NCBI GenBank assembly: GCA_964020085.1
Contig: OZ026603.1
Span: 180,001 to 244,000, forward strand
DNA from: Micromussa lordhowensis
Taxonomy: Eukaryota; Cnidaria; Anthozoa; Scleractinia; Lobophylliidae
Length of the DNA stretch: 64,000 nucleotides
Direction: 5' to 3'
Positions within the stretch are counted from its first letter, which is position 1. The number at the start of each line of letters is the position of its first letter. Made by a program: the position numbers and the translations under genes. Positions 5,367 through 48,100 of this stretch are shown here, one piece after another. The notes beneath the pieces are model-generated. The model did no database searches, was not told the DNA's origin, and saw only the letters and a program-made list of their open reading frames with translations.

Positions 5367-8300
5367 ATGGTTCCGCAAGTGAAGTTCTCACTCTTGTGCG
5401 CGGTTTGTATGATGTACGCTCTAAAGCCGTGTGAAGCCAGATCTAAGAGGGCACGGCCCGTGATCCGCAAATCCTTGCTGATTGTCGATGAAGAAGGAAT
5501 CGAGGTGATCAAATACGCGTCCGAATTGACCAAGAATGCCATAACGAAGTCGCTGAAACCAATATTTATGGACGACCACCATTTCATCAAGCGAGTTGCA
5601 ATGGTTGAAAATTCGCTTAACAGAACCTCCAAAGAAGGCGGCCTCTGGAACGTCGACGAATGTGCTTTCAAAGCTACGCTCAACAAACGAAAGGAAAACC
5701 AAAAGTTAGCAGCGTTACACAAGACGGTACGACGCACGTTTGGTGTCACTTGGTCCAAGATAAAATACAGCGATTTAAGGCGACCCTTGTACTCCGTGTT
5801 GGCCGCTAGGATTATCCTGGAAATGACTGAACGCTCCATTCCCCGTGGTTTGAGAAACCAGGCAAAACTTTGGTTAGAGACATACCATGACTGTGCAGAA
5901 ACACTCGGCAAACCACAAGCATGGGAAGAGATGAAAAACAAATTTATCAGAGGTGCGTGTTTTTATTTTGTCCCATTTATTGTACAAATACAAATGAAAG
6001 GTAGAGATACATGTAGAGATGCATGTTAAGAACATTTACCAGTCAGCTTAGCTCTGGAATTAAGCTTAAAACAGAGGAATGTCTTGTGTTTTAACCGGAA
6101 ACTCAGTCTGAGTAGGTTCCGGTGCGCGTCGTATTTTCTCGCAAGAAACTACACAGTGAAGGAATCTCACCGCAAATGGAAAGGTCAGAGAGGTATCCAC
6201 AAGCTATTTTTACATTCTTGTTCCGCGTTATCTCACGTTAACTATGATTTCAAAGGTTTATCTTCAAGTTAATTATGTTCCGCGCGTGTGACTGACTGAC
6301 TAAAATTGACTTGCAGATGTTGCGCTAGGGTTGAATAGCAAAAAATAACATGATTTGGAAAGATTTGTTGCTTGAGCGTCTCTGCTATGCTATTTTTGAA
6401 GTTCATGAGTGTTTTGAAGAGGTTTACTGATATACTTTGATAAAAGCTCTCTTGTATAGAGCCAATGAGAATGAAGCAGACGAACAGCGACGTTTTGAAA
6501 GCGAGTTCGCGCGTAACTCCCGCGGTCACGCGGATTCTGTAAACAAACAAGTAGCGGCTAATGGTCGAATATAAATCTCAAATTTCTCAAGTAAAGTGCT
6601 GTCATTAGGGAATGGAATTGGTAACAGCTGAAAACTGGAGCTTCGTTCTTCTCAGTAAAGTAACTGTTACTCTTTGGACGTGTTTCTTATAATGTCCTAG
6701 TTTTGGCAAACCGCAGTTTCTGCTACTTTTCTCAAAAATATCACTGTTCCAGTTTATGATAGGATAAGCCAAAAAATGCGGTTTCCCCTGTTTACTTAAA
6801 AAACGTGACCCCGATAAACTTCTATGAAGCTGTTTCTCTTTTTTCCGAGATACATGGTTCGCTGTTGTCGGAATTTGTTGCGGAGTGTCAGCAGCTTAGC
6901 TCTTGTTTGTTCAAATTTACTGGTTGAACAGTTGCGTTTAATGTGGCCGCGAAACTCACATAAGGCCTGGCAACGATTTACTATTGATAAGGAAGCGAAA
7001 GAAATTTCTGTTCCAACGTTTATCGGCATTTCAACTGCGCTTTGAGCTGCAGAAGCAACTCAAAAAAGCTCGATAAAGCGAAAAGATGCTCATTTAAAGA
7101 GCTTCTAATCAATACGAGATACGATTTTTTTCATATTTAGAGGGTAAAAAGTTCCTAAATCAGTCATTTATATACTACCCCTTGGTATTTTAATTCTGTT
7201 TTATTTCAGGTGCATTTTTCTTTTCATCTCTGTGTCAGTTGTTTTCATCACTTCTGATTTGTTTAGTTTGCCTCATAGAGAAACATTCTTTCCAGTCTGG
7301 TCTCGATAGAAGACAAATAAATCAGTCTGATGATCTCGAAATCAAAATTCCCTCTGCTAAATGATGAGAATAACACGTTTCCTTACAATGTTATTTAATT
7401 GGTTGGGGATTCTCCGGGACAAAAGTCACTAACAACTAAGAAAATCGAAAAAAATTTGTTTTTAAAACCCTTTCATTCTTCCGGCCCCTTTGTTCTGTTA
7501 TCAAAATTGTATTTGTTCATATCGTTTTTAAGCCCATTGGAATCGTTCGAGATAAACAACATTTAAAGGAGATGAATAAACAAGATTTGTTGAAAATCTC
7601 AAATGTAAACAATTCCCAGGAGTCTGATCACCCTCTAGGTAGCACGTTTGCACGTTGGGTTTGCGTAACGCGCTTCGAGATTTGCCGAAGTTGACAAAAA
7701 AATTGTTTTACCTCAAGGCAGAATTATTATTCCTTGTACATGCCTCCCCATCAATTTATCTAGCCCATCCTTATAAATAACTGTTAAATAGTTAACAATT
7801 GTGTTTTTTTTTTCTCACGCATTAGGCCTCTGCCCTCCGTAACATTATTGCCAACGAGCCAGCCGAGCGAAGACGCTCGGCTGGCGAGGCGGCAGAGAAT
7901 AGTGCCGCGCGAAGAATGGCGTATGCGAAAAAATTCTCGATCGAGCTCTGAAAAGTGTAACTGTAAGGTGTAAGATGTAACAATGGCTCAGTTTGAGCCA
8001 ATTGCAATTCGAGCTATTGTAGTTTTTAGCCAATCAGGAGGCGCGTTACATCTAGACTTGTCTCGTGGAATATCATTGTTTTCTTTGCTGTTGTGTTTAT
8101 CCAACTGTGAACAATTTCATAGTCTCAGCAGAGAATAGTGCCGCGCGAAGAATGGCGTATGCGAAAAAATTCTCGATCGAGCTCTGAAAAGTGTAACTGT
8201 AAAGTGTAAGATGTAACAATGGCTCAGTTTGAGCCAATTACAAGGACGGAACTATTCGAGCTATTGTAGTTTTTAGCCAATCAGGAGGCGCGTTACATCT

Positions 8301-11300
8301 AGACTTGTCTCGTGGAATATCATTGTTTTCTTTCCTGTTGTGTTTATCCAACTGTGAACAATTTCATAGTCTCAGAACATATCGAACCAGCGTGTTTCCT
8401 CTCTCACTTTATCGAAATGAAAGTTCAATTGGGGAGCGTACCCTTTACAAAACTCTTCTTCTAATTCGAATATTCAGGAAAACTGTTAGACAAGAGCAAA
8501 TCCAAGACACAAAATCGACACGAAACCGAACCAGCGTGTTCACCACAGAATTGAACGAGCGTGTTCATGAATCGAAACAGTGTATTCCTTCTCTGTTTAC
8601 CTATATCGAACTGGAAGTTCCATCGGGCAGCTTTTTTGGAAAGATTGTGTTCACCAGTCGAACCACTAGAGCAAATCCAGTGTTGAAATCTAGCATATCG
8701 AACTGAAGGTTGAGTCGGCAGTGTTTCCGAACAGAACTGCTGAACGAGCGTGTTTATCATATACAGTCGAATCCAGTGTTCAAAACAGAAATCGGATCTG
8801 TTTTGCCACAGAATTAAACGAGTCGTGTTCATCAATCAAACTAGCGTGTTCACTTTCAGTTTGACTTTGCCCATCATATTGAACTGAAAGTTCGACCGAG
8901 CAGCGATACATTCCAATACTCTTGATATTAAGGGATTGCGTGACGAACGTTACCTGCCGGTAAACGCGTTATAATTTTTCTCGGTAATGTTTGCAACAGA
9001 AGAGAACCAAAAATCCGTTATGCTGTATTAATAAACCCCTTATTATAGCACAAATTATTCGCTCGTTGGCACTCTATCGATAGGTATACCTAGTCATTAA
9101 TTCCATGCTCCCTAACCAAAAACTTTCATTCCTCAGTGCGAATTCACTGATGGACACCGCAGTATCGTATTCGTGATAAACTATATATACGTTTTCATTG
9201 ATTCTTATCAAGATAAGTTTAATTTTCTGTATTAAGGCTTAGTAGGTACAGCCTCAAATACGTGGTTCTAAATCTGTGTTGTGCAGGATCGGAATGGAAA
9301 GGATTTTAATTAGATCAACATGTCAAACGGTTGAGTCCCAATTGTCCTGAGCCGGGAAATATCTAATATAGCTAACAAACATTTGATCTCAATTTCATGG
9401 AACGATCACGCAATATGGAGCACACATTCAGTTAATAAATAGCTGCTATTTAAGACAAATCAGTACAAAGTACAGATAAGATTAAAATAACAAGGCTGTA
9501 CGTGAGTGCATTTTGAAAGAATTTGTCGCCACCGGTTCAGCTGATTGCGGTCACAAAAGCGAGAAACAGTGTTTATTCAAGGAAATCATTTTCACCATAA
9601 AGGAAAAAGCAGATCTCCGTCCGGACTTGCGTTCGTTCAACCACATCAGAATTGAAGTTTCGTGGTTTTTCATTAAACTGGCTACAAACGGCAATGGTGA
9701 TCCTGCGCTAAATCATTTTCACACATAGCCTCGCTATTTTGGGAGAATCAAAATGTTTCCTCAAGCAAAATGAGATTCATTTACAAGAAACGAAATCAAC
9801 AGTTTGCTTGGTGAATATGGTTGAAAGGGTTCAGAGTTTTCTACTTGTCTCGTCTTAAACTGAGAGAAAGGAAACAAAAGATAAGTTGAGATTAACGGAC
9901 CACCTTATGAGATGGACTTCACTTTACCTCTGCACGAAACAGATCAGCTGTTTAGTAACTTGAAAATAATCCATTTACCCATCAGTGGACAAACTGAAAA
10001 CGTTTTCATCAAAGGGTTTTTTATTATTTTCCTTGTAGGGCTTACGCCTGACTACAACACGTGGTGTACCTGCGCGTACACGTGAGAATACTGGCAATGT
10101 TCATAGAACAGAACCACAACGTTCTCAGTTGCATTTCTTGAGTATCAATGGTGTTACGAATAATGTTGTTGCATGGATCGTGATAACAAAGACACTCAGT
10201 GTTAACATTGAAGAACTGGTAAAGACGTTTTCAATCAACAGCTTCGCTTTCGAAAAAGCCCTTGTCAGTGGCGAAAGGTTTTGGAGAAATAACCTTCCGT
10301 CAATGTACTTGGCAGTTCACTTAGCGATCGAATACACATTTTTGTGGGTTTTAAATTGATACTTCCAAAATTATCAATCACGCAAGTATTTGGTTTTCCT
10401 GTTTTTCATAAATGTTTGGAACTTTCTAGTTTCCATAAGCCAACCGGGGCTTTGATTTCTACCAAATCAAATTTACAATCCTTGAAACCTTTTTAACTTT
10501 TCCGGGGACCAGGTCATCCTAGTTTCGATTTCTCCATCATTTGTCTTCTAATTACGAGATCGGTTGTTTTATATGCATTTAATGGCGAATTCCAGCCACA
10601 ACGTGTAGGTAGGCCTGATAGAAATCCAATTATTATTAATACGATCCCTTTGCTATTTTGGGCCAACCTCTGACTTCCCTTTTCAGGTGTTATTTTTTCA
10701 TCTTATCGTTTCAAATCATCTCTTAATGAGAATCCTTTTAACTGTGTGTGGCCTTGATGTTTTCCTGTATCAAGAATTCGGTATGACATTAAAAATACAG
10801 TACAGTTTTAAAATATTGTTTCCCTGTGCTGTTCAGTTTCTGCACGAAAACCGGCAACGAGATATGTTTTAAAAAATATTTAACATTGACACATATTGAA
10901 ACTTTGTTTATTTTTTCAAACCAAAAACAGGCATGTTGTTCTGCGGCTGTAAAAACATGGCGAACCTCAAAACTCATCTCAAAGTTATTTTCAGAAAAAA
11001 TCAACTTGAGGTTTTGCGCTGTTGTGTCTATTATTCCCAAATGCTTTTTTGTTTGCACGTACTGATACTCTACAAGAGTTCTTTATATTTTTTTCAAGAA
11101 GCAAACCGGGAGGCAAACAACATGGCATGGCGTGCGAAAGTGACCCATTAACGAAACAAAATCACGCACGCACTAGCAACTCGAAATAGTTTAGAAAAGG
11201 AACTTGAAAACATGCACAATGTGTGTCCGTTGCCACATAAGACGTAACGACGGATAATTGAATGTCTAATAAATATATCAGATCAATTGACGGTCGGCCA

Positions 11301-20540: not shown

Positions 20541-23500
20541 TTAACTAAACTTGGTCTTCTTAGTGATGGGTTCGTTGTCATCTTCTTCACTGTTGTCCTA
20601 ATCAGCCAAAAAAATTACGTTAGTAAGCCTCTTTCCCAAGGCCTCTCTCCCTCCCACCCGCTGGAGCCTGGAGCGAGAGAAAGAGAATTTCAACGGTACT
20701 GTTATTCGTTTACACAAGAAGTCAGAACAGTAAACTCAGATGGTAAACAAAGAGAAGGACGTTTGCCCTGCAGCTGTTGAGTTATTGAGCAAGGAATAGC
20801 TAATCAAGCCTTGATTCAGTGCTCAGTTCCCGCCCCGGAGAATCAAACTTTGCTAATTTCTTTACCGTGTTCATGTTCAGGTAATACCTTTTTCGAACGG
20901 AGGTTGAAGGATAAAAATCTGTTCTTTGTTGAGGACTTGTCCAGATGAATGTTCACAGTCACTCGGTCAAACAAACGGTATGTGACGTCACTAACCCTCA
21001 GTGATGGCTCCTTTAATACAAGGAAAAAAAACTAGCTGAATCAGCAGATTTATCACTACAATTTCCAGGTAAAAAAAAACTGAAAACAGGAAAAATTGCG
21101 TTAATAAACTTATCAAGTTCAAGAGCACTTCACCTCTTGGTTGAAGATAACTGCTGATTCAGTTTGTTTATCCATGAACACTGTTCCCTCCAGGCCGTAC
21201 TTTGGAATCAGAACTTGAAGGGCGTTCTTGCGAACAAATAGAACAAACGCCTCCTCCTCTGTTACTGCTTTCCCTTGGAAAAACAGCTGCCAAGAGAACA
21301 TATGTTACAAACTAAAAACTTCAGCATTATTTTCAAATGTCGCACAGGTGCCTCTGAAATTACTCACGGTCAACCTCAGAGCCGAGACGGAAATAACAAT
21401 AACAATGACGTAATAATATAACTACAATACCTGACAATGCAAATCAATGGAGTCCCGGGCTGCATACTGAGCCATTTTGTGGCGGAAATTTAGATGATTG
21501 CAGAGTTTCTGAAACCGTGAAAGAAAATATTCCATGACGGTTATAAATAATAATGGGATCAAATATCTAAACCTTTAGTTGGACACCCACCCACCTGCGT
21601 TTTAACTTTGCTGAGGAGGTCTGGATACGAATCCAAAGCTCCAATGGCAACAGCTAACAACCGATGCACCATAATGTCGGAGTATCTGCGGTGAAAAATA
21701 ACGAGGAGCTTTAAGAAATATCATGATAAAGTGACCAAGAGGAGCGGCGAGAGATAAAATTAACGGAGCTTTGCAGCAGTACAAACAAACCTTCTGATAG
21801 GTGATGTAAAATGAGTGTAAATTGGAGTAGCCAGACCATAATGTTGAAAGTCCTCTTCAGCGAGCATGCCGGAACAGAAGTAAACCGCTTGCATCATGCA
21901 TCGAGTCGCCATAATACGGAGCAGCGTGTTGAAGTAAGGTTCATCCGGGATATTAGCAGCATTTAAAGAAACCGCGAGGGACTTGGCACTATCCACCTCA
22001 AGATGGACTCCCTGAAAAAAAAAGTGTGAAATGTGAACACAAACCGATCACAAAGAGCTTCCGCCATGTAGACAAAACCAGAAAGTAGATAATACAATAA
22101 ATATCTTGATAGACCATTCCCCCATAAAGTAAAAGAACATGCTATGGTTAAAAATTCCAAGGAGGCAGACTAGTTGGCTATTTACAAGCGTGGACGAGGT
22201 GTTGAACTCGAAACTATCGAGAACAACACTAGTGGTCTGAACGGGACTTGAGCCCGCGACCCGACACCCTAACCATTCGGCCACACTGCCTCCTATACAC
22301 AAAAGCCCTCTGAGAGAACATGTGGTTATTGGATAGTGAATAAACAATGGTACAAAAAAAAGAGTTCCAGGGTCTTAGTTTTACTGCAAAATATTTGTTT
22401 TGAAATTTTAATGCTTGACACAAATGTTCTCTGCATCATTGCGCAGCATTAGGTAACTTTACGATGCAAGGATGGGAAGGCTAGGACGGGAACAGCAGTG
22501 GACGCGGGAAACTTTCGTTAGTCTCGTCGTGTCGCCAAAGACAAAATGCTTAAGATGTGTATTTTTTGGTATAGGACGGCGACATCAACCACTCGAGCTA
22601 CATCCCGGTATGAGCAATCGATAAAAACCGATATCGGAAAACCGTTCGATAAATCGATATCAATCGATAATTTTTATTTAATCGATATCGATTTTATCGA
22701 TCAATCGATAGAAATCGATACTCACAGTCTTCCGCGTATTTAACGATATCGATTTTATCGATTAATCGATTTTAACGGAGTATCAAAACCCATACAAAAT
22801 AAAACTGCTTCTACGTGGACAGCGTTTTAATTTAATATAAAACAATGAACAGAAACATTAAGCAACCAAGGATTTATTTCATTCAGTCAACACATTAACT
22901 TCATTCTTTGTTTTTTCTTTTGTTTCTTTGGTTCTGGAACCATGTTTTAACCTAAAAGGAAAAAAAAAAGAAACCAAATTTATATGTTTATTGCAGGCAA
23001 CCGTATCCCGGTTAATCATTTTGACTCTTATATTCCCGGTATATTCTCGCAAGGTCTCTCGATGATTTTACTTTATATCTCCAGGAAAAAGCTATCTTAA
23101 ATTCACTTACTTGGTGTTGCTCTAAGTCAAAGTTCTCGGCCAACTTTTCCATTAGCTGTGCCGTCGGACGGCCCTTTGTCCTTCCATATGCATGGTTTAG
23201 TCCACTCAGCTGAAATTCAGTAAAGTGGACCCTCTTTTTCTTTGCAGCATTCACTTCCTCCTCATCCGAGCTAACAGCTGCTTTTCTCTTTCCTAACAAA
23301 GAGTCTCATGTCATTATAAAGGCATTTTGGGAGAAGGGGAGGGGATGTTACTTGATATACCCTTGGGTGGGTAGAGGCGGTCCGCCACGGTAAACTAACC
23401 CTGTTTAAGCTGGGCTTAAGACAAACGTCGTCCATTTTCCTACCCTAAATTTACGATTTTTCTCTCTATTTAGGTCATTTACCTAAGAAAAGATACCGAC

Positions 23501-26500
23501 TTTTTAAAGCCCTTTTAAGGGATTGACCTTCCTTGCTCACCCCCCCCCCCCCTTCAGTAGATTATGTCCGTCTTGAATTATATCCTAGAATATACTTCGA
23601 AAATGATATAAAACCCAAATACCTTGTTTGAGAGCAATAAGTTGTTGCTGCTCCTGTTTGTCATTGAGAAAATTCTCCATTTTCTCGTAGATCCATTTGC
23701 CTTGGCCTTTTGGTAGCTCGGCCGGCGGCTGTCTTAAAACGTCAGAGAGTGTTGACTGCTTTCTGCTTAAAATTTTCTCAGCAAATAATGCCTGGCTTAC
23801 GCTATTCTTCTTTAGCCAGGCAATGACACCATCCGCTATGGCTTTTGGCGTCTGGACCGGTTCCCTTTCGTCTTCTAAAAATTCAAAACAATGCCAAGAA
23901 TAAGGACTTCTGACTGTCCGTTGCACACTATTTTAAAAACAGATTCTGGTGACCATATTTCCAAGCGGAATGGTGTAAATTACTTACTTTCAGCATTCTT
24001 GTCTTCGGAAATCAACAACGATTCTGCTTCCTGCGGGCGGGCGGCTTGAACTGCGCATTCTTCGATAGATCCCCCTTTTTCTTGAACAAAAGTCATAAGA
24101 GCACTTCTGTCCTCCTTATCGACTGTCACTTTAAATGTTACAGAATTCATTTCTAAGCCCTACTTTCTCTAGTACTGAAGGAGATGTCTGAAGTGACCAA
24201 GGACCACCAAAGTAACATCCAAGTAACACGCTTTTAAAACGCACGTGATGTGGACATGACTGACCACTGTCAGATGGCCGCTTATCTTATCAATACATAC
24301 ACGCGGAAATATTGCGACACAAGCATTAGAATCTTTCCCTGTACATGTTCAGACTAACTGCCCGTAAACATCAAGCGTTTTTAGATCGTTCGCAGTCTTT
24401 TGCTAGTTGCAAAATGTCAAGCAGTTCCAGGAGTGATGTTTGTGGAAAGTCATCGGGAAGTGAGACTCTTCAGTTTGAAGCGACCGTAAAGGGCTTACAC
24501 GAGTGTAGCTTTGGCATTTCTGTGGGAGATGTGTTTGAACTTTGCAGAAAGATTGGAAGTAAAGGAAAGGCTTTCGAAGTGCTATGTAGCCAAGGAAGGG
24601 TGGGACACTTGGAAAAAGACCTAGTACCAGTACTTTGGGACTTAAAACCATCTACTGTGCTGAAAGGGTAAGATTAAGGTCGATTGTGATCTTTATTTTT
24701 GTAATTGTGGCGCACGAACAAATTCCAGATTTTGGTAAACAGACACTTATCTCATTAGCCATTGATTGATAGGCTTCTTATAGTCCTTTGTCGTAATCCC
24801 TGACATTAAAGATGAATCGTTTACCTTAAGTTATTAATATTGCAATTTTTTGGTCATATGCAGGATTGCTACTGGAAGTCCTTTTCCAGATCCCGTAGGG
24901 AGGTGGCGTAAAGGAGGCGGAATAAATCTACAGATAAAGGTCATAGCAAGTGATACGACCAGCAGTGAAGTGAAATTACTGATGGCTAGACTGAGTGATC
25001 TTGGAGTGCAGGCTGAATAGAATCAAGCTGTGTGGTCTTGATAATGAACCATTGTTAATGAAAAGCCGACTGAAATAAAATACATGTATAATCCTACAAG
25101 GCAAAAAAAAACTGTGTTGTTATTTGTATGCTTTACACCCACATGCACTGGAATGTCCCGAAATATAATATATTTGACATACGCACTTGTACCTGATTTT
25201 TCGTTCTTTATTGCTTGTTGACAATACATCTTTGGCTTGTTAGCATCCCACCAGGGTATCCCATCGTAAATGAAAGATATTTCACCGTCCTAAAAGCCCT
25301 TACATCCGGTTATCTCAAATTCCGGTACCAGACAGCGTGGTACAAAGTACAATTTCAAACAGTTGCAACAAACCCGACTGGTTGGCTTGTCACCTTCTCC
25401 AATTTGCATTGAAACGTGGATATAACGTTACTTTCAAGGAATGCGGTAGCCAGACAACAACGTCAAAATGTATTCCCCTTATTTGTTAGGGGCTTTCCTC
25501 TTTTTGAACTGTGTTACACAATACTATGTTTCCGGTACCCAACTTTCCAAAATTATAACTGACTTGGAAGGTTTAGGCTTTACGGATCAACTCAGGTCAG
25601 ATGATGACTATGCTTCTTCGTTGTACTGCCGTCCGTGTCAAAAGGTCGTCACATATACAGATGTCACCCAGCTCGCATGGCTTCTTCGTCGTCACAGCGA
25701 AACAGAGAGACATAAAATGCTATCAGGGTGGACATTAACCGCTGATTATAAACCCATCAAAACCTTTACCGGAAGTAAGTATTCAAATGAGTTTTCTTAC
25801 TTCAGTTAGTAATTCCCAACTGAGACAATATATAATAATCACCTAATGTTGCAAATTGCTTGACGTTTTTCTTTCCCATTGTTTATGTGCAGATGCGAAA
25901 AAGATAACTTCCTTTTGGAGTTCTTCGTCAACTAAACCTACAACTAAGTCTACAGGCACTAGTGAAAAGGCGAGGAAAACCCAACTGGATCTGCAGTCGA
26001 TGGAGAGAAAACGAAAAGCAGCGGAAGGTCTTGTAGAAGATGAATTGATAAACAAGGTAAGTTAGTTTTGAATTATATTTTTTTATTTTGATAGTTTGAC
26101 TGATGAGGACGTTTATAGGCAGAACGGACGCATATAAAAAAGTTCGGGTAACAAAGATTTTGTTTAAAATTCTACATTCTACGAGGCTATGATAGAATTC
26201 TCTGTGATAACGTAAGTAGCTTAATAGTGTCTTACAGTACTCAGTTCAAAATCAACCTATTTCTTTTAGGCTACAAGGATAGCGGTAATTGAAAAAGAAA
26301 CCCACTTCGGACGCAAATTGTCTGATGTTCTTGTTGGGGGAGAAAAAGAAGCCCCAGCTCTCACAAACGTCGAAATCGAAATCCTTCAAAGCGCCAGTGA
26401 GGAAAAGATTCGAAAAATAGAGCAAGATGCTGCTAATCGTGTACATTTAGAAACTCGTTTGGAAACTATGATACAAAGTTGTTTGGCTGTGAAAGCTAAC

Positions 26501-29500: not shown

Positions 29501-32500
29501 GGAGAAAGAAACTAGAATAAGAAAAAAGAAAGAAGGACCCCCAGAAGAGATGAGTGTGGCATTACTGAAAGAGGTTTTAAAGGAGATGGGTGTCAGTTTT
29601 AAACACAATTCAACAAAGGCCCAACTAATGGAAAAAGTAAAAGAAGTCCGCGAGAGCCACAGAGAAGCAACATATTCTCATGCCCACAGCAGCAAATCAG
29701 TCCACAGTCAAAAAACCTCAGAACGCTCTCGCCAAAATTATTGGAATCAGTTTAGAAATGACACGCATCCTCTGCCTTTGTGGATCATGTATGATCCACA
29801 GAGGAAAAGGCGCATTTTGATCATAATCATTTTAATGTTAATTTTATTGGCATTTACAAACATGTTTTCTGAGCTTCTTAATGTTGAGTTCCTTTCAAAT
29901 TTATATCAGTTATTTTTGTTTCATTACCTCTCTTCTGCTTTAGTTGCGGAGTTCATCATTTACTTCGTTTTACTTATTTATAGAATGATTTTAGCTCTGA
30001 TTTGTAGTATGATTTTTGCGGCGGCGAGGGTTTTGCTGACAAAACATTTACTGGAGACAATGTCTAGCATTACAACTACGCAGCTTCGTACTTCGTAGTA
30101 CATGTATTTGTAGGATGTCATTACGACATTTAGCTTGAACAGTTTCTGAGTAAATACAAAAAGCGGTTATGTTATGTTGCGTTTTCCCGTTGAATCATGC
30201 CAGGGAATCGTGTTAATATTATTTGATTATCAGTATTCATTCAATTATCGATTTGTTAAATAAATCTTTAAATTCGTCCTACTTGATTCATTGAATCGTA
30301 AGAGTGTTTTTATGGAAGATTTGATACATTTTAGAAATTCGATAAAATCGATAACATTAATTTAAAAATCGATAATTATCGATTACTCACAACGTGTCCT
30401 TTTATCGATTTTAATCGCTTTCCGATACAATTTACTAATTTTTATCGATTGTTATCGAATGTTATCGATTATCGGTTTTATCGATTGCACATGCCGGGGC
30501 TACATATGGATCACAAACTGGCTAGCAACGTCAACCTTTTTAAGAATTTACTGCGAACATTGAAGCTTTAGCGGTGTCCCCACTTATACCATGAAAAAAT
30601 GAAATAAACATCAATTTGAGAATGTGAATTTATTTGCTCGACAGATGCTTTTAATTCGCTCCGACGAAGGCCTAACGTTCGAAACGTCAGCTTCCGAATC
30701 TCTTTACGGTGGCCAATTCACATTATCAACCGAGTTGATAAAACCAAATTATCTAGATGCTTTTAAGACCTGCAAGATTATTCGACAACAATACTTTGGC
30801 ACATTATTTCGGTGTAAGCTGTGCCTGGTTAAATTAGAAAGAAAGATAGAAAACTCAGAAAACATTGCGGCTACTCACCAACATATGTGATTATCCAAAC
30901 GAAAACGAGTCTGCAATGTTCTACGTTTTGACTTCGTAGCGGTCAGCGCTGAGAGATCGTAGAGGTTCGTAGCCGGGTTCATAGCGCCATGTTTTTGCTA
31001 AACCCGACGCTAAACTCGAAATTGTGCTACTCGAAATGTGATATTCAATGAAAGGATAATAAATCTAAGCTGTAAAAAGTAGTTATGTACTTTCATTTAA
31101 ACTCGCGTTTAAAAGGCGAAAATTGATTATTAAATCTCGAGGTTTTTTCGGTCTCACTTCGTGAGATGCATTGTTCCGAAGGCTTCCGAAAAGTCACGGA
31201 CTATCTTACTTACTAACGGACCTGTAGCCACAAAAACGCTCGGATCGGGAACTCATTTTGATGCTTAAGGAAGATTTTCAACAAACGGCAATTAATTAGC
31301 AGACTGTCACAGAGCTGAAACAAAAACACCCGCTCACCTTAGAACGTGCAGCTTTCACCAAGATGTCGTAGTTTGCAGGAGGTGGCGAAGGATGTCTTCT
31401 TAAAACGGCAAATTCAGGAAAATGTTGAAAAATTTTCTTGGCCACTGAAATGTTGGCTAATAACATAAACTCCTCCACGAGGGAATTAGTTTCTCTGGAA
31501 ATAAATAAATAAATGACAAGAAATGCTAAATGTTTATTTATGTATCAGAAATTCCCATTACTCGATGGAACGGAAACTGTTTTCAATCGCAGATTCCAGC
31601 AATGTCAGCAATTTCTACTCTGTCTCTCGAACAACGCCGTCAAATTTGGCTTGGAGTGCCTCGGCTCGGGATTTCTACCTTAAGCTTGGACTTTCCTCTT
31701 CCAAAGGCCAGCCCGACACCAGAAATCATTGCTCAGGAAATCTTCTTAACGATACGAACATCACTGTATCAGCAATTCCCATTGTTCGACATAACTTTAC
31801 AGTTCACAAGTATCAGCCCTACCACTGAACTCCAAACAGTTATAACAGAACTCAAATACACTGTCACTAATCCGAAGATGATTACAATACAAAACCGAAA
31901 ACGTTCCCCATACGTATTGCAAATAAAATAGAACACAAGTATCAGCCTGCTGATCAGCCCTCAGATACTAAACTCACATAGATCACAAATGGATTGCCAC
32001 TAATGTATGGTCGAAAACGTTACCAATGCGTATTACAAAAACCAACATTTGCTCTTATTTGCAGTAAACTGTTAATTTAAGATTAGAATTGTAATAGAAT
32101 GTCAAAATGAGCTATGTCCTGAAAGCAAACAAAGCAAGTTTCCATTTTAAGTGCAACAATCGCAGTTGACATACTGTAGTAATGTAAAGCGATACACGTG
32201 CCTGCAATATTGCTAATACAGCGATTTCAGAAGCTTTATCTACTGGTCAGCAGAATCACTCCAAGGAAAGTTCACAGATGATGGAAGGACAAAAAAAGTT
32301 CACAGATGATGGGAGGAAATCATTTGCATAATCTGCACCACCACCAAAACCCTTAGATTGCTTAGGCAATGTCCGGGTTAACGAAATGACATGTCTTACT
32401 TAAGCTCCTTTGTCTGTAGATCCACCGGATCATGTGTTTCGCTATCGATATGAAAACGAACTTCTGGGGATGCGAGAGTTAAGGCTCTGAAATCACAATA

Positions 32501-39125: not shown

Positions 39126-42100
39126 GCTACTAGGGGACTATTAGCAATAGTCATCGAGTACGAAATTCGCCAGTTTTTCTTTTGCTTTTTTCGCCAAATA
39201 AATATTTTTTCAACTTGCATTTGCAAACTTTATTATTCCCTTTTCTGTCCGACTAGTTGGGTGATACTAAAACAATTAAACCCTTCGCCCTCAAGGGCCA
39301 CGGGTCTAATTGTTAAATAGAAGGCAAACCAAATTCAAAAATCATCTTCTGTTGTTTAATGCTAACTGCATCTGGAGTCCCCTTCTTCAACTTGTTCTGC
39401 CCTCCTTGATCGCACTTGCAAGAAAAGCAAGCTCTTCATTTTCACAATGTGTCTTTTTCACATTTGTTCCGCCACTTTGGTCAGCAATAACCGCTGTTTG
39501 TAATAGTGCATCTTTTATTTTTGCAATTAAGTTCGACTAAATTGCGTTCGACGTTTGAATCAACCATGGAACCTCAATCATTTGGGTCGACCTGAATTGG
39601 TATTAGGTTCGGCACATGTAAAGTTCGACGTTTGAACCGGGCCTTACACGGCATTCTTTTCCATTAGATAGAAACACTATCTGACTTCCTACGGCTGGGA
39701 TGGAAACTAGCTTAACCAATATGATTAATGGTCTATATAAGATGTGTACCATAAGGTCACTGTCGTCATCACTAGCATCATCATCATCATCATTGCCAGT
39801 TGGTAATGTCGTAGTTACAACTGATGATGGACAGGTCCATTGTTTCTTTGGTAGAATCTCCACGGCAACAATATCTTCATGAACTGCACGGTTGAGATTC
39901 ATCAGTCCTTGGAGAAATATCTGTGAGGGACATGGAGGGAGGGACATATTGCATTTTTAGATTTATCTAAATGAGGGCCACAAAAATTGGTTAGTGCCCT
40001 CGATAAATAAAGGCTTTAGCTTATCTTATCTTACATGTTTATTTAAGATTATTTTAGACAAAAATACTTAAAATAGGGCAGCATTGTTTTTCACACACTG
40101 AATGTCATTTGTCTGCCACACAAGAATGCAACAGCACTTGATTTGCAACCTCACAACTGAGATATAATAATTTATGCATTGAAAAAGTACAATGTCCATA
40201 CCAACAAAAGTCTTAGTGTGTTTCCCTTTATTTTCGTAACCTCAATGACTCAAAGTATTACTGTATGCTATGCAGACTGGCAAATGTGGCTTGGTGGCAA
40301 GAAAAAGAAACTGGATCACATGACCAAATATGATATCTGATATCCTGATTGAGGTCCAGCTGCCCCCCCCCCCCACCAATTCAGTGTTTGAGAACTTAAT
40401 TTCTTGCCTCTTTTGCAAGATTAGTGGGCAAGAAGAACATTTTCAACGATGAACCACTTTCAGCAGCCATGTCTAAATGTACAGCCACCAGCATTTTTCC
40501 CATCTAGAGTAACTTATTTACAACGTACTTCACACTGGAGTTCACTAGTCTTAAAGTGCACCTAACCCCAAAATATTTTTTTCGCTTAAATAACTCTTTG
40601 CACCTGTTTGAAACGCATTGCGCCTTTTTTCCCTTTTCTAGCCCTAATCTTGACTTTTTATAGGTGGTAAAAGTTAAGAAATCTGGCCATTGTCTGTTCC
40701 ACCACCGAGCAAGTACCGGTAAGGGGAATGGGTTTATTCCTGGGTTGATGTCACAAACTTCTTTGCATGCACGTTTACAAAGACTTAATATGATGCAAAT
40801 CAGTCTGTGACGTCAACCCAGGAATAGACCCATGCCCCTTACTAGCTCGGTCGTGCAACAGATGATGGCTAGATTTTGTAACTTTTACAGCCTATAAAAA
40901 AGTAAAGATTTAGTTTCAAAAGGCGCACTGCGTTTCGAACAGGTGCAAAGATTTATTTAGGTGGAAAAAATTTTTTGGGGTTAGGTGCACTTTAACAAAT
41001 AACACATTGTGTTATCCTCTTACTGCCTACTATGTTCTGTAATCCTGTCTGCTGCTACAAACATTTTGACAGAAATTGGACTATGCATATAAAACTATAA
41101 CGTTCAGTTAGTAACAATGGCAATTGTGTGGTTGTTTAAACTACTTCCTCTATGTTATTATTCTATGCTGTAATTGTGTTTGTATTTGTAATGAATGAAA
41201 AAAAGTAAAACACTTCAAAACATTTGTTTGTCAAAACATAGCATTTTTAGCTAATCAGATTGTGCATAGAAACCAATCCATATTATAATTATGATGAAAA
41301 ATACCTGCTTGTCATCATCATGAACAAATACATAAGCTTCAGTGTAGTTTTCTCTGTCGATTACAAGTTGCAAAAATTATGAAATTAGTAGATGACCATT
41401 GAGGATATTTAAAGGCAGGCTATAGCCAACTGTGCATTAAATTCTCTATTATAGATAACAATATGTTTACTTACCTACTTCTGTGAAATGCACCCTAAGG
41501 AAGGCACAAGAAAAAAACTTCATTGAACAAAAATGTCTTTTAACAAATATTGGATCTCTATGTTCTTTGCTGAATCATGTTGAACCCACAGACAAGAAGA
41601 GAATGGTTAACGTCTCCATCTTGTATTAATCTATCTTAAATCTACTAACAAGGACACACAATCACGTAAGTCATGTAGTATGTACACAGCAAGTAATTCC
41701 GCATCACTAAGCATCTGCTGTTTTACAGCTGTAGGTAAGGTAAGGTTAAGTCTGCATCAGCGCAAGTGGTCATCTTATGAACTTAACACCAGTATCTGTG
41801 ACATAAAGCAACAAGTGACAATCGTATACCTGTAGGTACTTGCCACTTTTTAATCCAGCCTGTATTTTTGTCAAAGGTAGATGCTCAGGATAAATCCACT
41901 TTCTCATTTTCTTGTCATCAATCTAGTAATAGTAATAGTAATAATAATCTTTATTGAGGTAATCAATTTCACCGATAAGTGATTTACAAAAGAGTCCTCA
42001 AAAATTAAAATAAAACAAAAGGAAAAATGAAGATTAATATATGAATATATAAAAATTAGACTAAAAGCTATTTACATTTCCTAACGCTCTTTTAAAACTA

Positions 42101-45100
42101 GCTAATGATGGGCTTTGTCTTATTGAAAGGTCTAATTTATTCCAATCATTTGAGGCAAAATTTGTAGAAGACCAATGCCCCCAATTTCTACTAGATGCAC
42201 TCTTACGGATATTGTTCTTACATCTTGTATTATAATCATGTTTATCTTTATTAAATTCTATATTGAAACGATGTGAAAATAAGTTATTTAAACATTTGAA
42301 AATAAAAGTTGCCCTATGCTCGGCCCTGCGTCTTGCGAGAGTTCTCCATTTCAATTTACTCAGGGCCTCGCTTGCAGATGATCCGATAGGCAAATCTAAA
42401 ATTATTTTTGCAGCTTTATTATGCAAAGATTGAAGTTGCAACATTAAAGTGGAATTGCCTCTATCCCCCCATACGATATCTGCATAGTCAAACAATGGCA
42501 GAACATAGCTGTTAAAAAACAGCAATCTAGCATCCAAAGGTAGACAATAACGAATACGTTTAAGTAGACCCAGCTTCTTATTTATCTTAGAAGACATTTG
42601 ATCTACATGATCTTGCCAAGTTAAACGGTTATTGATAACAATACCCAAGTACTTAAACGAACTTACTTCATCAAGATTCATGTTATCAACCTTAAATGAT
42701 ATAGAATCAATCTTATTCAGTCGTTGACTGCTACCAATAATCATGAATTTAGATTTACTTATGCTAAGCGTCAAGTGATTTAACTTCAGCCAATTATTCA
42801 GTTCTTCCAAGTCTGAATTCATGTAGGACTTGATATTGTGCAGAGACTTATCAGAAATAAAGAGCACGGTATCATCTGCATAAAGAGTGACGTCACAGTG
42901 ATCCAAGTAATCTGGTAAATCGTTGATGTAACACGTAAACAGTAGGGGACCCAAGATGGAGCCTTGGGGTACACCAATTATAGAATATTAAATAGTTAAA
43001 TAGTGCGTCTTAATTATAGAATATTAAATATAGAATATTAAATAGTTTGTGTGTTAATAATTTAGTTCCTTCACTGCAAGGACATACTGAGTATGTCCTG
43101 TATCAGATTACTTATATGCTGTAAGGAGGTACTCAGTACATCCTAAATCAAAGCACTTGTATGAATATTTCTGCATATTGTAAAAACAGTGAAACAGCAA
43201 ACAAATAAAGTTATATAGTAAAATGGTTTGAACCCAGGAGTATCAGTAGTTCATATAGTATGATCATCTGGGTGAGTGTAGTTCTGAGAAGAACTGTTGT
43301 TGGTGACTTAGACGTTTCGACAACCTGAGCGGAAGTCATCTTCAGAGTCAAGTGAATAGTGTTTGTCAGTCGATGATGTTTGTTACGATAAGTAGTTTAG
43401 CGTGACATCGTGAGGTGTAGTTTGTCACGCTTTCCCTCTTTCACTTGTATTGCCTTATTTGGTCATTAAAGACCGCTCCTTGTTCAAGTGACTAATGGCG
43501 TCAACACATTGAAACATGGTGTCAGAAGTGAAAAATGTATTCTGCGGCTAACACGTTCGCTCTGACGGGTTCAAACACTGTCAACGAAGAATAGATGTTG
43601 TCCCCTACTGTCGACCACATTTAGTTCGCACAGTGATAAGTACGTCGAAAGCTCACGAAGATGACAGACAACGAGCACGTGGAGTCGAGTAGTTCGCAAG
43701 TTCCAGCGCCGCCGCAAGTTGTTCCTCATGTAGCTGTTCCGCAAGCAGTTCCTCAAGTTATTCCGCACAATTTCCCTCTGCCACATGCAATGAAATGTCA
43801 TGGAGATGTCGTCGGAAACTGGGAGTTCTTCAAACAACAGTGGAGTGATTACGAGATAGCAACAGGCCTTGACAAGCGAGAAGAGTCGGTCCGCCTCGCG
43901 ACCCTGAGATCTGCTATGGGCAGGGAGTGCCTTCAGGTATTTCTCAACCTGAGTCTTTCAGAAGATGACAAAAAGAAGATAGACAAATGTCTGGAAGCGC
44001 TGGAGAATTACTTCAAGCCCGCCAGAAATGTAGTGTACGAAAGGTGCGTCTTTAACACGTGTGTTCAGGAAAGCGAAGAATCTGTACAAAGTTACGTAAC
44101 AAGATTGAGAAAGTTGGCCACTTCTTGCGAATACGGCGAACTGACGGATGAATTTATACGAGACAGACTAGTCATTGGCTTAAAGAGATCAAGGAGATAA
44201 AGTCAGGTTGCTGCGAGAAAAGAACATGCCCAAACCAACATCCAAGTTTGAAGTACTCACCTTGCTTGGCTTCGTGAATTATCTCTCCAAGTTCTTACCC
44301 AAGCTTTCAGATGTGTCTACACCGCTAAGAGAACTTACCAGTAACCAAACACAGTTCACATGGGCAACACATCATGATAAAGCATTCACCACCATTCAGC
44401 AGTTGGTTATCCAGCATCCAGTGCTGAAGTTCTATGACGTGAACGAAGAAGTCACCATGCAGACAGATGCCAGCAACAAGGGGTTAGGAGCCGTGCTTAC
44501 CCAAAACGGACAGCCAGTGGCTTTTGCGTCAAGAACTCTCTCTCCAACAGAGCAGAGATATGCAACCATAGAGAAAGAATGCCTAGCAATCCTTTTTCCT
44601 GTGAAAGATTTAACCAATACCTGGCTCATAGAGAGAAAATCTCAGTGGAAACTGACCATAAACCTCTTGAGTCCATATTCAAGAAGTCACTGTTATCAGC
44701 ACCTTGTCGTCTGCAGAGGATGCTACTCAGACTTCAGCGATACAATTTGTCAGTTAGTTACAAACCTGGGTGTCAGATGTTCCTGGCTGACCACTTGTCA
44801 AGAGCAGCCCAGCATGAAGTTACTAAGCCAGAGGAGCCATTCCAAGTGTTTTCCTTGGAGGTAGAGAGCTTAAACCCTATTCAAGCCCTGAGGGTTACTC
44901 CAGAGAGATTGGAGCAGCTGCAGCGGTGTACTGGGCAAGACGAAACATTGCAAACCCTAAAGACCACAGTCCTGTCAGGTTGGCCAATGCAAAAAGAGCA
45001 AGTGCCTGTCAACATCAGAGAATACTGGTCTTATCGGGAAGAGTTAACAGTACACAATGGGATCTTGTTCAAAGGTTCAAGAGTTGTCATACCTCGCGTC

Positions 45101-48100
45101 ATGAGATCTGAAGTCAAATCAAGAATACATTCCAGCCATTTGGGAGTTGAAGCTTGTCTCCGCAAAGCCCGAGACACAGTCTTCTGGCCTAACATGAATG
45201 CCGAGGTACGGGACCTGATCAAGCAGTGTTCCATTTGCAATGAATTTCAAGCCAAGAACCAGAAACAACCTATGCAAAGTCATCAGCTTCCAGATCGCCC
45301 TTGGAGCAGAGTTGCCGCAGATCAGTTCAAACTGCATGGCAAAGAGTACATTGTTCTTGTTGACTTTTATTCTGACTTCCTTGAGGTCAAACAGTTGGAA
45401 GAGAACACTTCAGGTTCAGTGATCGAGTTTCTCAAAGAGCAATTCAGCAGATATGGCATACCAGATACCCTCGTAACCGACAACTGTTCTCAGTTTACTA
45501 GTTATGAGTTCCAGCAATTTTCGCGTGATTGGGAGTTTATACACATGTCATCCTCCCCACACCACCACAGGTCCAATGGAAAAGTGGAGTCGGCGGTAAA
45601 AGTAGCCAAGTCCTTATTGAAGAAAGCACGTAAAGACAACAAAGATCCTTGGCTCGCGATGCTAGATCAGAGAAACACACCAACCGAGTCACTTGGAGAA
45701 AGCCCAGCACAGAGATTAATGTGTCGTCGCACCAGAACCAGACTGCCCACAGCAACAAGCCTTCTTTATCCGAAGGTACCTGAGAATGTCACCGAGAAGT
45801 TAAAGATAAAACGGCAAAAAGCGAAATGGTACCATGACCGTTCCACCCGCACCTTACCCGAGCTAGAAATAGGACAGGAAGTGCGAGTTGCCCCATTACA
45901 AAAGAACGAAACCTGGAAACGAGGCACATGCCTAGAAAAATTGTCAGACAGATCCTATCGAATCAAACCTGAAGGAAACAGTCAAGCCATTCGTAGAAAT
46001 CGAGAGTTCCTTAAGCCAGCAGAGAAACTTGCAGTTCCTCTGACTCAGATTGTCACGATCCAGTTGCAAGACCAGTTGCAGAACCAGTTCCAGTGGAGGA
46101 AAGTCAGCCCTCGAGCAATACTACCCAGTCAGCAGTTCCTGAAGGCAAACAGACCATTGCAAAGATACCTGCTGTACAGAAGACTAGAACTAGAGTAGTC
46201 AAGATGCCATCAAGATTCAGAGACTATGTCACTTAGTCTTTAAGTAGAACTTAAATGATAGCCAGTTCTTTCAAGTTAAGAACTCTGCAGAGATTGAGAC
46301 ATTGACTTCTAAGACTCTTAAACGATGGTTTCTAGAAGCTTTATTTTTGTTGTCATTTTCACACATGTTAGTTTATGGTTTTCAATTTTGTTTTGCTGTC
46401 CTTCGTTCAGTTTTCAAAAAAAGGAAGGGAGATGTTACGATAAGTAGTTCAGCGTGACATCGTGAGGTGTAGTTTGTCACGCTTTCCCTCTTTCACTTTA
46501 TTTGGTCATTAAAGACCGCTCCTTGTTCAAGTGACTAATGGCGTCAACACATTGAAACAATGTTATAAGTTTGGTCCGTTGAAAGTGATTGGTCACTTTA
46601 GCCATGATGGTATTGGCTGAAAGACTCCTGTTAAGTTTGTCATCAGTCATTGGTCAGTTTCGATCCGTCTTTTGTTAGTCAAATTGCTAGCGTTGAGGTC
46701 CGTGTATAGTTAGTCAAATTAAGTCGGTCTGTTAGAAGTCCGTTTGTCGGTTTTGTTTGCGTCGTGAATAAGTCGTTTGCAAGGCGCCAGTAGCTGTTGA
46801 CATCTGTTAAGAGGTTTTTGTTCTAAGTTAGTGTACCAGCTTTCAAGAGTCAGTCGTTGAAAATAGTTCGTACTGTAGGTTAAGCATTGAGCACTGTCCC
46901 AACAACAGTTCTTCTCAGAACTACACTCACCCGGACGATCATACTATACGAAATAAAGTTATGAGGGTCTGGTAAAGACTAGTACATGACAAAAAACCTG
47001 TTTAAAAGATTAAAAATATCTTTGTAAAAATACCAAAATTTGCCCCACGCAAGGATTGAAGAAATGGCCTGTGGTGAACGGGTTAAAGTGCCACTGCGAC
47101 GAAATTTCACATTTCTTTTTCCCACTTTTTTTATACAGAATAACTTCCCATCATGTACGATGTCCTTTCGTCCAAAAAGAAAAAATTAAAAAGACTTCCT
47201 TCATTAAAATTTCGCCGCTCGAAAAGTGATAATTTTCGTCCGCCATTACTCGAAATTGGTTCCAGTTGAGCCCGCTATTTTCACAGCGGCATATCTACTT
47301 GTGACGTCATATTCCTAACACGAGATTGATGATCGCTTGATTTTAGAGGGATTTCAGTCGGTCTTTGGCTCAAGTATCTGCGAAATATCTGTCGATTCAG
47401 AAGCTCAATTTGGGGAAAATTTGTCTGAAAGCAGTAGTGAAGGTTGCTCTGAGTTTTCAGAGGCTAGCTTCAACTCGGCAAAGTGAAGATTCTAATCATA
47501 CGATGATAGTGCAGAGCCAATTGCCATCGAAGAAGAAGCTACCCAGCTGTACGCTAAACAAATAGCTGTTTAGAGGAAGAAGAGCCTGAGGACATGCTTC
47601 TGAGTCGATTTGCTGAAGAGACAGATCTGTTAGACTGGTATTTTATTTGGTTTCTTCGTCTCGATTCTTTCTGCTTTTATCAATGCGTTTATTTTTGTAA
47701 AAAGAGCTTATTTCAAGTAGAGTGTTTCGAAGGAAGTACGTACGTTGGATTCGATCTGCGTCACCGTCGGTTTTGGAAATGTATGTCTGTTTCGTATGTT
47801 TATTGTAATAGATGCAAGTGTATAAATTGTTCGTTGGAAAACGTTGTCCACATGAAGGATGTAGATGTTGCATGGAGGTTGATAGATGTCGTGAGAGAAG
47901 GGCAGAAGTTAAAAAAGACGACTAGTAATAATTATAAGCTTATGTTACTTTCACTTCCAGGTTTTGAAAGTGTCTGTCCGAATAGTTGGGTTTTGGTTAC
48001 TGCAACAATAGGGCTTAAAACGAAACAGAAGAAAGCGTTTACCACATTCTTTGCTGAAGACACCTGAGACAGTGGGAAACCCCAAAAATTGGAATTTGAG

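Follow-up and report, generated by a model that had tools for sequence, protein, structure and literature searches.

How a homeobox gene can come to be a lasting part of a DNA transposon is the question raised by a locus in the coral Micromussa lordhowensis. In animals, homeobox genes are familiar as regulators of the host's development. In the present case a gene for a CUT-homeodomain (CUT-HD) protein lies inside a transposon at positions 22604-30498 of the stretch analysed, a 64,000-nucleotide piece of contig OZ026603.1 (assembly GCA_964020085.1, positions 180,001 to 244,000) that we call the window and whose numbering is used throughout. The gene is conserved across a family of transposons, and the binding sites of its class, ATCGAT, are found in arrays at the element ends. 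We consider it probable that the element is a two-protein system, in which a DDE transposase would act together with an element-encoded CUT-HD protein that docks on the terminal ATCGAT arrays. The evidence for this reading, and the alternatives to it, are discussed below.

Structure of the element in the window

The element has 23-bp terminal inverted repeats (TIRs) at its tips, CCCGGTATGAGCAATCGATAAAA on the plus strand (22604-22626) and CCCGGCATGTGCAATCGATAAAA on the minus strand (30476-30498), which are alike at 21 of 23 positions (91%) and are the sole two matches of the pair within the window at up to 3 mismatches. A 7-bp target-site duplication (TSD), GCTACAT, is present on each side (22597-22603 and 30499-30505). 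Both the matching TIRs and the duplication had been reported in an initial annotation of this DNA and both are seen. The left array has 11 copies of ATCGAT within 155 bp (22617-22770) and the right array has seven within 140 bp (30347-30485), as had been counted before; an eighth right-hand copy, beyond the dense array, is found at 30247-30252. The counts at the left and right ends compare with shuffle means of 1.9 and 0.7, respectively, and none of 2000 shuffles reached either of them, while the rest of the window has at most two copies in any 170-bp stretch. The arrays are located beyond the 3' ends of the genes, the left one being separated from the CUT-HD gene by 130 bp, and no ATCGAT is present between the gene starts (24.15-25.47 kb). 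ATCGAT was taken in the initial annotation as the core site of CUX/ONECUT-type proteins, which agrees with the published consensus: it is the motif core for most CUT homeodomain proteins (PMC4077741).

The CUT-HD gene is on the minus strand at 22901-24150. Its four exons (24150-23988, 23874-23623, 23292-23111 and 22951-22901) are joined by GT-AG splicing and encode 215 amino acids (aa), with a CUT domain at residues 65-134 and a homeodomain at residues 156-213. The two domains score above the Pfam cut-offs (E values of 9.4e-17 and 3e-13, respectively), and a CUT domain followed by a homeodomain makes the protein a member of the CUT class. The homeodomain has W48, F49, Q50, N51, Q52 and R53. 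Splicing and Pfam thus bear out the earlier description of an intact spliced gene, with W48, F49, N51 and R53 all in place. In having a single CUT domain before the homeodomain the protein resembles ONECUT, and its closest PDB structure is that of HNF6/ONECUT1 (2d5v, E value 2e-15). The homeodomain, however, is nearer to Q50 types: its top matches are Q50-type homeodomains (BarHL1, DUX4 and NANOG), and ONECUT is not among the best 60 of its 169 matches.

The transposase gene is on the plus strand at 25468-30098 (the end is approximate). It is broken in the window copy by frame changes near 26.8, 27.06 and 29.1 kb and by an in-frame stop at 27919-27921; a full-length copy elsewhere in the genome that is 98% identical (L009) has a single 1264-aa open frame across the region broken in the window. 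When five copies of the transposase are aligned, the candidate DDE residues are invariant: D346, D448, D500 and H503 are found in every row, together with further invariant residues, and the D500-W-x-H503 motif, with D and H in 5/5 rows, precedes a candidate final E. A C/DxxH motif between the second D and the final E marks the hAT/P/MuDR/Kolobok/Dada group of transposases (PMC9587614), and the predicted transposase carries this motif. No match to a transposase was found among Pfam families or in PDB, where a profile search gave PHD-type chains alone, and a single-sequence model (mean predicted local distance difference test score 36.9) was too poor for fold comparison.

The encoded protein has an odd architecture for a transposase. 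A PHD-like finger at 28687-28806 is below the Pfam cut-off in the window, and the transposase of a relative (L024) has PHD_NSD above the cut-off. A HeH/LEM-like stretch at 29556-29633, also below the Pfam cut-off, is followed by hydrophobic C-terminal segments of membrane type at 29814-30020, which are present in all five copies tested (the window, L016, L024, L014 and L027). A LEM-like stretch with a hydrophobic tail recalls proteins of the inner nuclear membrane.

The transposon family

Copies were sought in the window's own 580.8-Mb assembly, the sole genome searched in depth. Full-length or nearly full-length copies that are 98-99% identical are present on C6 (L009) and C2 (L010, the last bases of which are unread sequence), and deleted or interrupted copies of the window type are present on C12 (L011 and L013). 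The initial annotation had proposed to check whether full-length copies keep the TIRs and the CUT-HD gene together, and those read in the source genome do. The duplications vary between copies at a length of 7 bp (AGTCAAA in L009, TTCAAAA in L013), and exact 7-bp TSDs are found in the window, L009, L013 and L027 as well as in the elements at L016 and L022. With TIRs and a TSD of fixed length at independent insertions, the element is a cut-and-paste DNA transposon.

The CUT-HD protein also matches loci that are 30-42% identical. By similarity the elements fall into six subfamilies: A (the window type), B (L014, L015, L017), C (L021, L023, L024), D (L016, L018, L022, L028), E (L027) and F (L026). 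At every locus named for B to F other than L018, a related transposase, whole or partial, is found at the corresponding position and in matching orientation; at L018 there are a D-type left end, the CUT gene and an array, and the transposase is not in the stretch fetched. Long matches of the transposase core between subfamilies are 51-54% identical. The layout is common to A-F: a minus-strand CUT-HD gene on the left, a plus-strand transposase, and arrays at the tips. A homeodomain above the Pfam cut-off is found in one copy from each of B, C, D and E, barely so in E (23.1 vs. 22.9 bits). In the last exons that were found, WF(Q/N/T)N(H/Q)R is retained, except in one copy with H replacing R, and the C-terminus in subfamilies other than that of the window reads WF(Q/N)NHR...YxPGQYS.

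The association of the gene with the transposon is also evident when the genome is searched from the side of the gene. Transposase similarity is found at 16 of the 20 CUT/HD loci examined, and each of these 16 has an array at one end or at both. An array is present at 17 of the 20, the three without being L019, L020 and L025, the last an ONECUT-like gene with a 319-aa frame. A genome search with PF02376 gave 21 hits, 17 of them inside family elements (two in the L022 element and one in L018); the remaining hits are two in the host genes L025 and L045, and two in L019/L020. No relatives were found in IMG/VR or GTDB contigs.

The arrays are a feature of the whole family. The TIRs of B-F are of the type CAGGRCGTACCYAATCGAT or its variants, recognisably related to the CCCGGYATGWGCAATCGAT of the window, and the TIRs begin with CCCGG or CAGGRC. 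In 22 ends tested, a sample that includes near-copies, the terminal 260 bp has 5-16 copies of ATCGAT against shuffle means of 0.45-2.67. The count was unmatched by 500 shuffles in 21 ends and matched by 2/500 in one (L026_R), and the outer flanks are free of ATCGAT in 21 ends and have one copy in the other. The first ATCGAT starts at position 14 from the tip in 17/22 ends, the left end in the window among them, and another starts at 24 in several left ends, in a comparison where most right-end coordinates of C-F begin one base late. Adjacent sites are spaced by exactly 10 bp in 25 of 90 cases in 11 ends, when 3.9 are expected, and none of 5000 trials gave as many. In 13/13 end pairs, similarity is higher in the ATCGAT columns (0.86-1.00) than in the remaining ones (0.65-0.83).

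A second box, (A/C)TCACA, is found beside an ATCGAT some 105-125 bp inward of the tip in the window element and its relatives, and its orientation is direct, not inverted, between the left and right ends. In the window, TCACA is present on the plus strand at 22722-22726, immediately 3' of an ATCGAT, and in the same orientation at 30387-30391. A genome-wide search for a tight ATCGAT triple gave 765 overlapping matches vs. 49 for a reversed control; among the first places listed on C1, some were traced to the CUT-HD transposon family and some have variant TIRs.

Two further observations were made on individual loci. L023 and L024 are opposite-facing C copies on C8 (~31.26 and 31.70 Mb) with swapped duplications, TTTCCAT and CTACCAA, each copy having one of the two at either side, as would be expected from inversion of the ~0.43-Mb stretch between them by inter-copy recombination, or from misassembly. 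L019 (C13, ~1.075 Mb) is an orphan CUT-HD gene of the transposon type, with a 260-aa frame and a last exon with a YKPGEYC tail; no array or transposase is nearby in the part of its neighbourhood that is read, some of it being unread sequence. It may have been domesticated from the transposon family as a host gene.

Descent of the CUT-HD gene

A tree of CUT domains (13 rows, 72 columns) unites the six transposon domains with L019 and L020 in a clade (98/98) that excludes L025, L045, HNF6, ONECUT2 and SATB2. Within the clade B pairs with C, and D is sister to a pair of E and F. In the transposase tree B and C again group together, as do D, E and F (both groups at 100/100), and A and a long-branched fragment, L069, fall outside. 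The two trees agree in shape. Since the transposon CUT domains form one clade, to which the genome's two other CUT genes do not belong, the gene was already part of the element before the subfamilies diverged, and the simplest reading is one capture ahead of that split, followed by joint descent of CUT-HD and transposase.

These results modify the earlier proposal that the transposon captured a host CUT gene. That element, gene and arrays belong together holds across six subfamilies with congruent trees. The capture, however, is old and not a recent event in a single element. Placement on a CUT tree, suggested at the same time, does not make the protein an ONECUT orthologue: the transposon domains are separated from HNF6, ONECUT2 and the ONECUT-like gene of this genome.

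Between subfamilies, the proportion of synonymous differences is saturated (0.74-0.94) and that of nonsynonymous differences is 0.32-0.47, over ~120 codons of CUT domain and homeodomain; the protein itself can still be aligned. The CUT-HD protein has been under constraint between subfamilies, which shows that the gene is kept by selection.

Short derivatives

Short members of the family are also present. Across the genome the A-type TIR pattern was matched 85 times (58 exact and 27 with 1-2 mismatches) and its control not once. We examined 22 of 23 listed short TIR pairs (L042, L043 and L048-L067; 685-1085 bp). In alignment, neither the CUT domain nor the transposase core is present in any of the 22. 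The last part of the transposase gene is still there, and in L057 so is the region of the last CUT-HD exon. The arrays are retained, with 16-19 ATCGAT in total, the right array of L061 being displaced inward. One deletion junction is common to 19 of the 22, which keeps 157 bp of the left end and ~579 bp of the right. Their TSDs are exact 7-bp duplications in 15, 6-bp in five, and absent in two; L050 and L051, with a 6-bp TSD, are one duplicated insertion, and the 15 exact duplications all differ. In other subfamilies, short copies of B (L044), C (L077) and D (L076, L078) similarly keep both arrays and have neither CUT domain nor transposase core, although L044 retains the region of the last CUT-HD exon; the TSDs are shifted 6-bp ones in L044 and L077 and exact 7-bp ones in L076 and L078.

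The short copies are non-autonomous and have been mobilised in trans. Their presence in four subfamilies implies that the minimum that moves is two array-bearing ends served in trans, the arrays themselves acting in cis. The initial annotation held that copies lacking the CUT-homeobox gene would mark it as a host gene or a passenger. The 22 short copies are indeed without the CUT domain, but the same copies are also without the transposase core.

Probable use of the terminal arrays

For an element that encodes a CUT-HD protein and keeps sites of that class at its tips in helical phase, marking and pairing of the ends would be the simplest use of the sites. By analogy with other two-protein transposons, we infer that the element's own CUT-HD protein binds ATCGAT for synapsis and not for gene control. 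The protein would bind the arrays at both termini, with several molecules lining one face of the helix as the 10-bp spacing would allow. Once bound, it could mark and pair the ends of the element and help to load the transposase.

Several observations weigh against this scheme. Binding by CUT-HD, synapsis and a need for the protein are predictions from sequence. The array spacings in related ends are not independent; whole sites are kept only partly between ends, from 4/11 (window left vs. L016 left) to 7/7; and aligners pair repeats with repeats, which favours identity of the ATCGAT columns. Within subfamilies, the ratio of nonsynonymous to synonymous substitution rates is 0.9-1.1 in B, 0.95 in C, and 0.14 and 0.45 in D, with few changes. 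Copies thus largely decay after insertion, which is expected for transposons and is no proof of use. The orphans L019 and L020 carry related CUT genes with no array in the part read, although a transposase fragment (L069) lies 17.6 kb from L020. About 14 places in the genome have transposase similarity but no CUT match. Most of these are unread, nine having matches of 31-178 residues; those read in part are L071 (1.5 kb, which runs into unread sequence), L069 and a copy beside L027. L046 and L047 were considered as counter-examples and rejected, being internal fragments with no ends or arrays over ~10 kb. A transposase "open frame" of 3630 aa proved to be read-through of unread sequence, and one of 4252 aa is presumed to be alike.

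Other proteins may be the users of the arrays. The genome's own CUT factors could use them, for cell-type timing, chromatin opening or replication, with the element's CUT-HD protein serving as a competitor or being otherwise employed. Two candidate factors are at hand: the ONECUT-like gene L025 and a second CUT gene, L045, which is CUX-like by eye and groups with SATB2 (89/92) in a tree without outside CUX. The stretch R-x-Q-x-(T/S)-(L/F)-S, which we take to be the recognition helix, is close to the host's in most transposon copies, and the CUT class as a whole binds ATCGAT (PMC4077741). If host factors sufficed, however, retention of the element's CUT-HD gene through saturating divergence would be hard to explain; and the short copies coexist with full-length ones that could supply the protein. 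We hold recruitment of host factors to be unlikely. We give little credence also to binding of the arrays by the transposase itself, with CUT-HD as an auxiliary regulator for self-regulation or anti-silencing. Transposases usually bind their own ends, the TCACA box could be the site of another protein, and the first exon of the window transposase has a possible C2H2-like finger (C-x2-C...H-x5-H). A zinc-finger protein outside the CUT class, Miz-1, is known to bind ATCGAT with its fingers (PMC4077741). But among eight loci scanned the finger pattern is present in the window alone, the stretches covered at its seven relatives being free of it, and it would have to be a coincidence that the motif is the consensus of the encoded class in six subfamilies.

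The remaining alternatives concern gene control and chance. CUT proteins are transcription factors, and the arrays could be operators through which CUT-HD represses or activates the genes of the element, with no part in synapsis. The closeness of the left array to the 3' end of the CUT gene is in keeping with this. The arrays, however, are at the tips and at the 3' ends of the genes, and the stretch between the gene starts is free of ATCGAT, which argues against an operator alone; short copies without gene starts keep both arrays and have moved. We hold an operator role to be very unlikely. Transposons do trap host genes, and a single copy might have trapped a host CUT gene next to arrays that arose by simple-sequence expansion. 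The chance of such an accidental passenger is practically nil: the same order and orientation in six subfamilies, the congruent trees and the positionally conserved arrays rule it out.

Docking of CUT-HD on the arrays, the reading that we favour, may also be subject to modification of the DNA. ATCGAT holds a CpG, so that methylation could gate docking, which is a guess. ONECUT1 is sensitive to methylation at its CpG-containing variant alone (PMC9729108). A bolder model would make the family a new superfamily of animal transposons, with CUT-HD binding cooperatively, one per helical turn, at ends gated by CpG methylation and handing these over to a PHD/membrane-tail transposase that might keep the reaction on chromatin near the nuclear envelope. 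Taken as a whole, that model appears rather improbable.

Comparison with known transposons

Docking of a separate DNA-binding protein on the ends has precedents. In En/Spm, a TnpA-type protein recognizes multiple subterminal repeats, which are cis-determinants of excision (PMC2613891). The present family resembles En/Spm (TnpA/TnpD) in having two element-encoded proteins and repeats near the ends, docking being predicted here. It differs in that the factor is of the animal CUT-HD type with ATCGAT as its site, in that the TIRs begin as given above and not with CACTA, and in the length of the TSD, which is 7 bp here vs. 3 bp in the CACTA element of PMC2613891. In PIF/Harbinger elements (Ping/Pong), a Myb-like ORF1 protein and the transposase are both required, and they serve short elements in trans; a role in marking and pairing the ends is ascribed to ORF1 (PMC9921582). 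The combination of a DNA-binding protein with a transposase, and the service of short elements in trans, are common to the two systems. Unlike PIF/Harbinger, the present family has a CUT-HD and not a Myb-like protein, dense arrays and a 7-bp TSD.

By its invariant D346 and D448 and its D-x-x-H, the transposase is like those of the hAT/P/MuDR/Kolobok/Dada group, and the TSD length is within the range of the group (PMC9587614, PMC3706591). Three members of the group were considered and set aside. No P-element similarity is found in Pfam or PDB at the sequence level. Kolobok has TTAA duplications of 4 bp, and those here are of 7 bp and of varied sequence. Dada has no TIRs and targets RNA genes; TIRs are present here and the 15 exact duplications all differ, although the TSD length fits the 6-7 bp of Dada. 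Among the papers listed in a literature search none is about a CUT-homeodomain transposon, Repbase, preprints and subscription papers being outside its scope, and the words "homeobox", "homeodomain" and "ONECUT" are absent from the accessible part of PMC10027918.

In the family one can test directly how a transcription factor is recruited and kept by a transposon, and study the co-evolution of a protein and its site. It can show whether mobility is controlled by DNA methylation through the CpG in the putative docking site, and whether the CUT factors of host and transposon are in competition. It is also a source of ready-made, dispersed arrays of CUT-factor sites in an animal genome.

Other features of the window

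Between the CUT-HD and transposase genes is a two-exon gene on the plus strand (24414-25020; exons 24414-24667 and 24864-25020). It encodes 136 aa that belong to no family, with no match in Pfam, PHROG or PDB, and among the fetched loci it is matched in subfamily A alone.

Other repeats are present outside the element. A reverse transcriptase piece is found at 42061-42987 and a gypsy-like retroelement, with integrase H2C2, rve and RT RNase H, at 44438-46198. A tyrosine-recombinase piece at 57123-58022, just below the Pfam cut-off, is presumably DIRS/Ngaro-like. A dispersed repeat has two pieces that are 93-97% identical (7845-9097 and 50608-52216), the first of which includes a 247-bp tandem duplication at 7892-8375. 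A tandem array with 6.3 copies of a 77-78 bp unit is present at 34707-35196.

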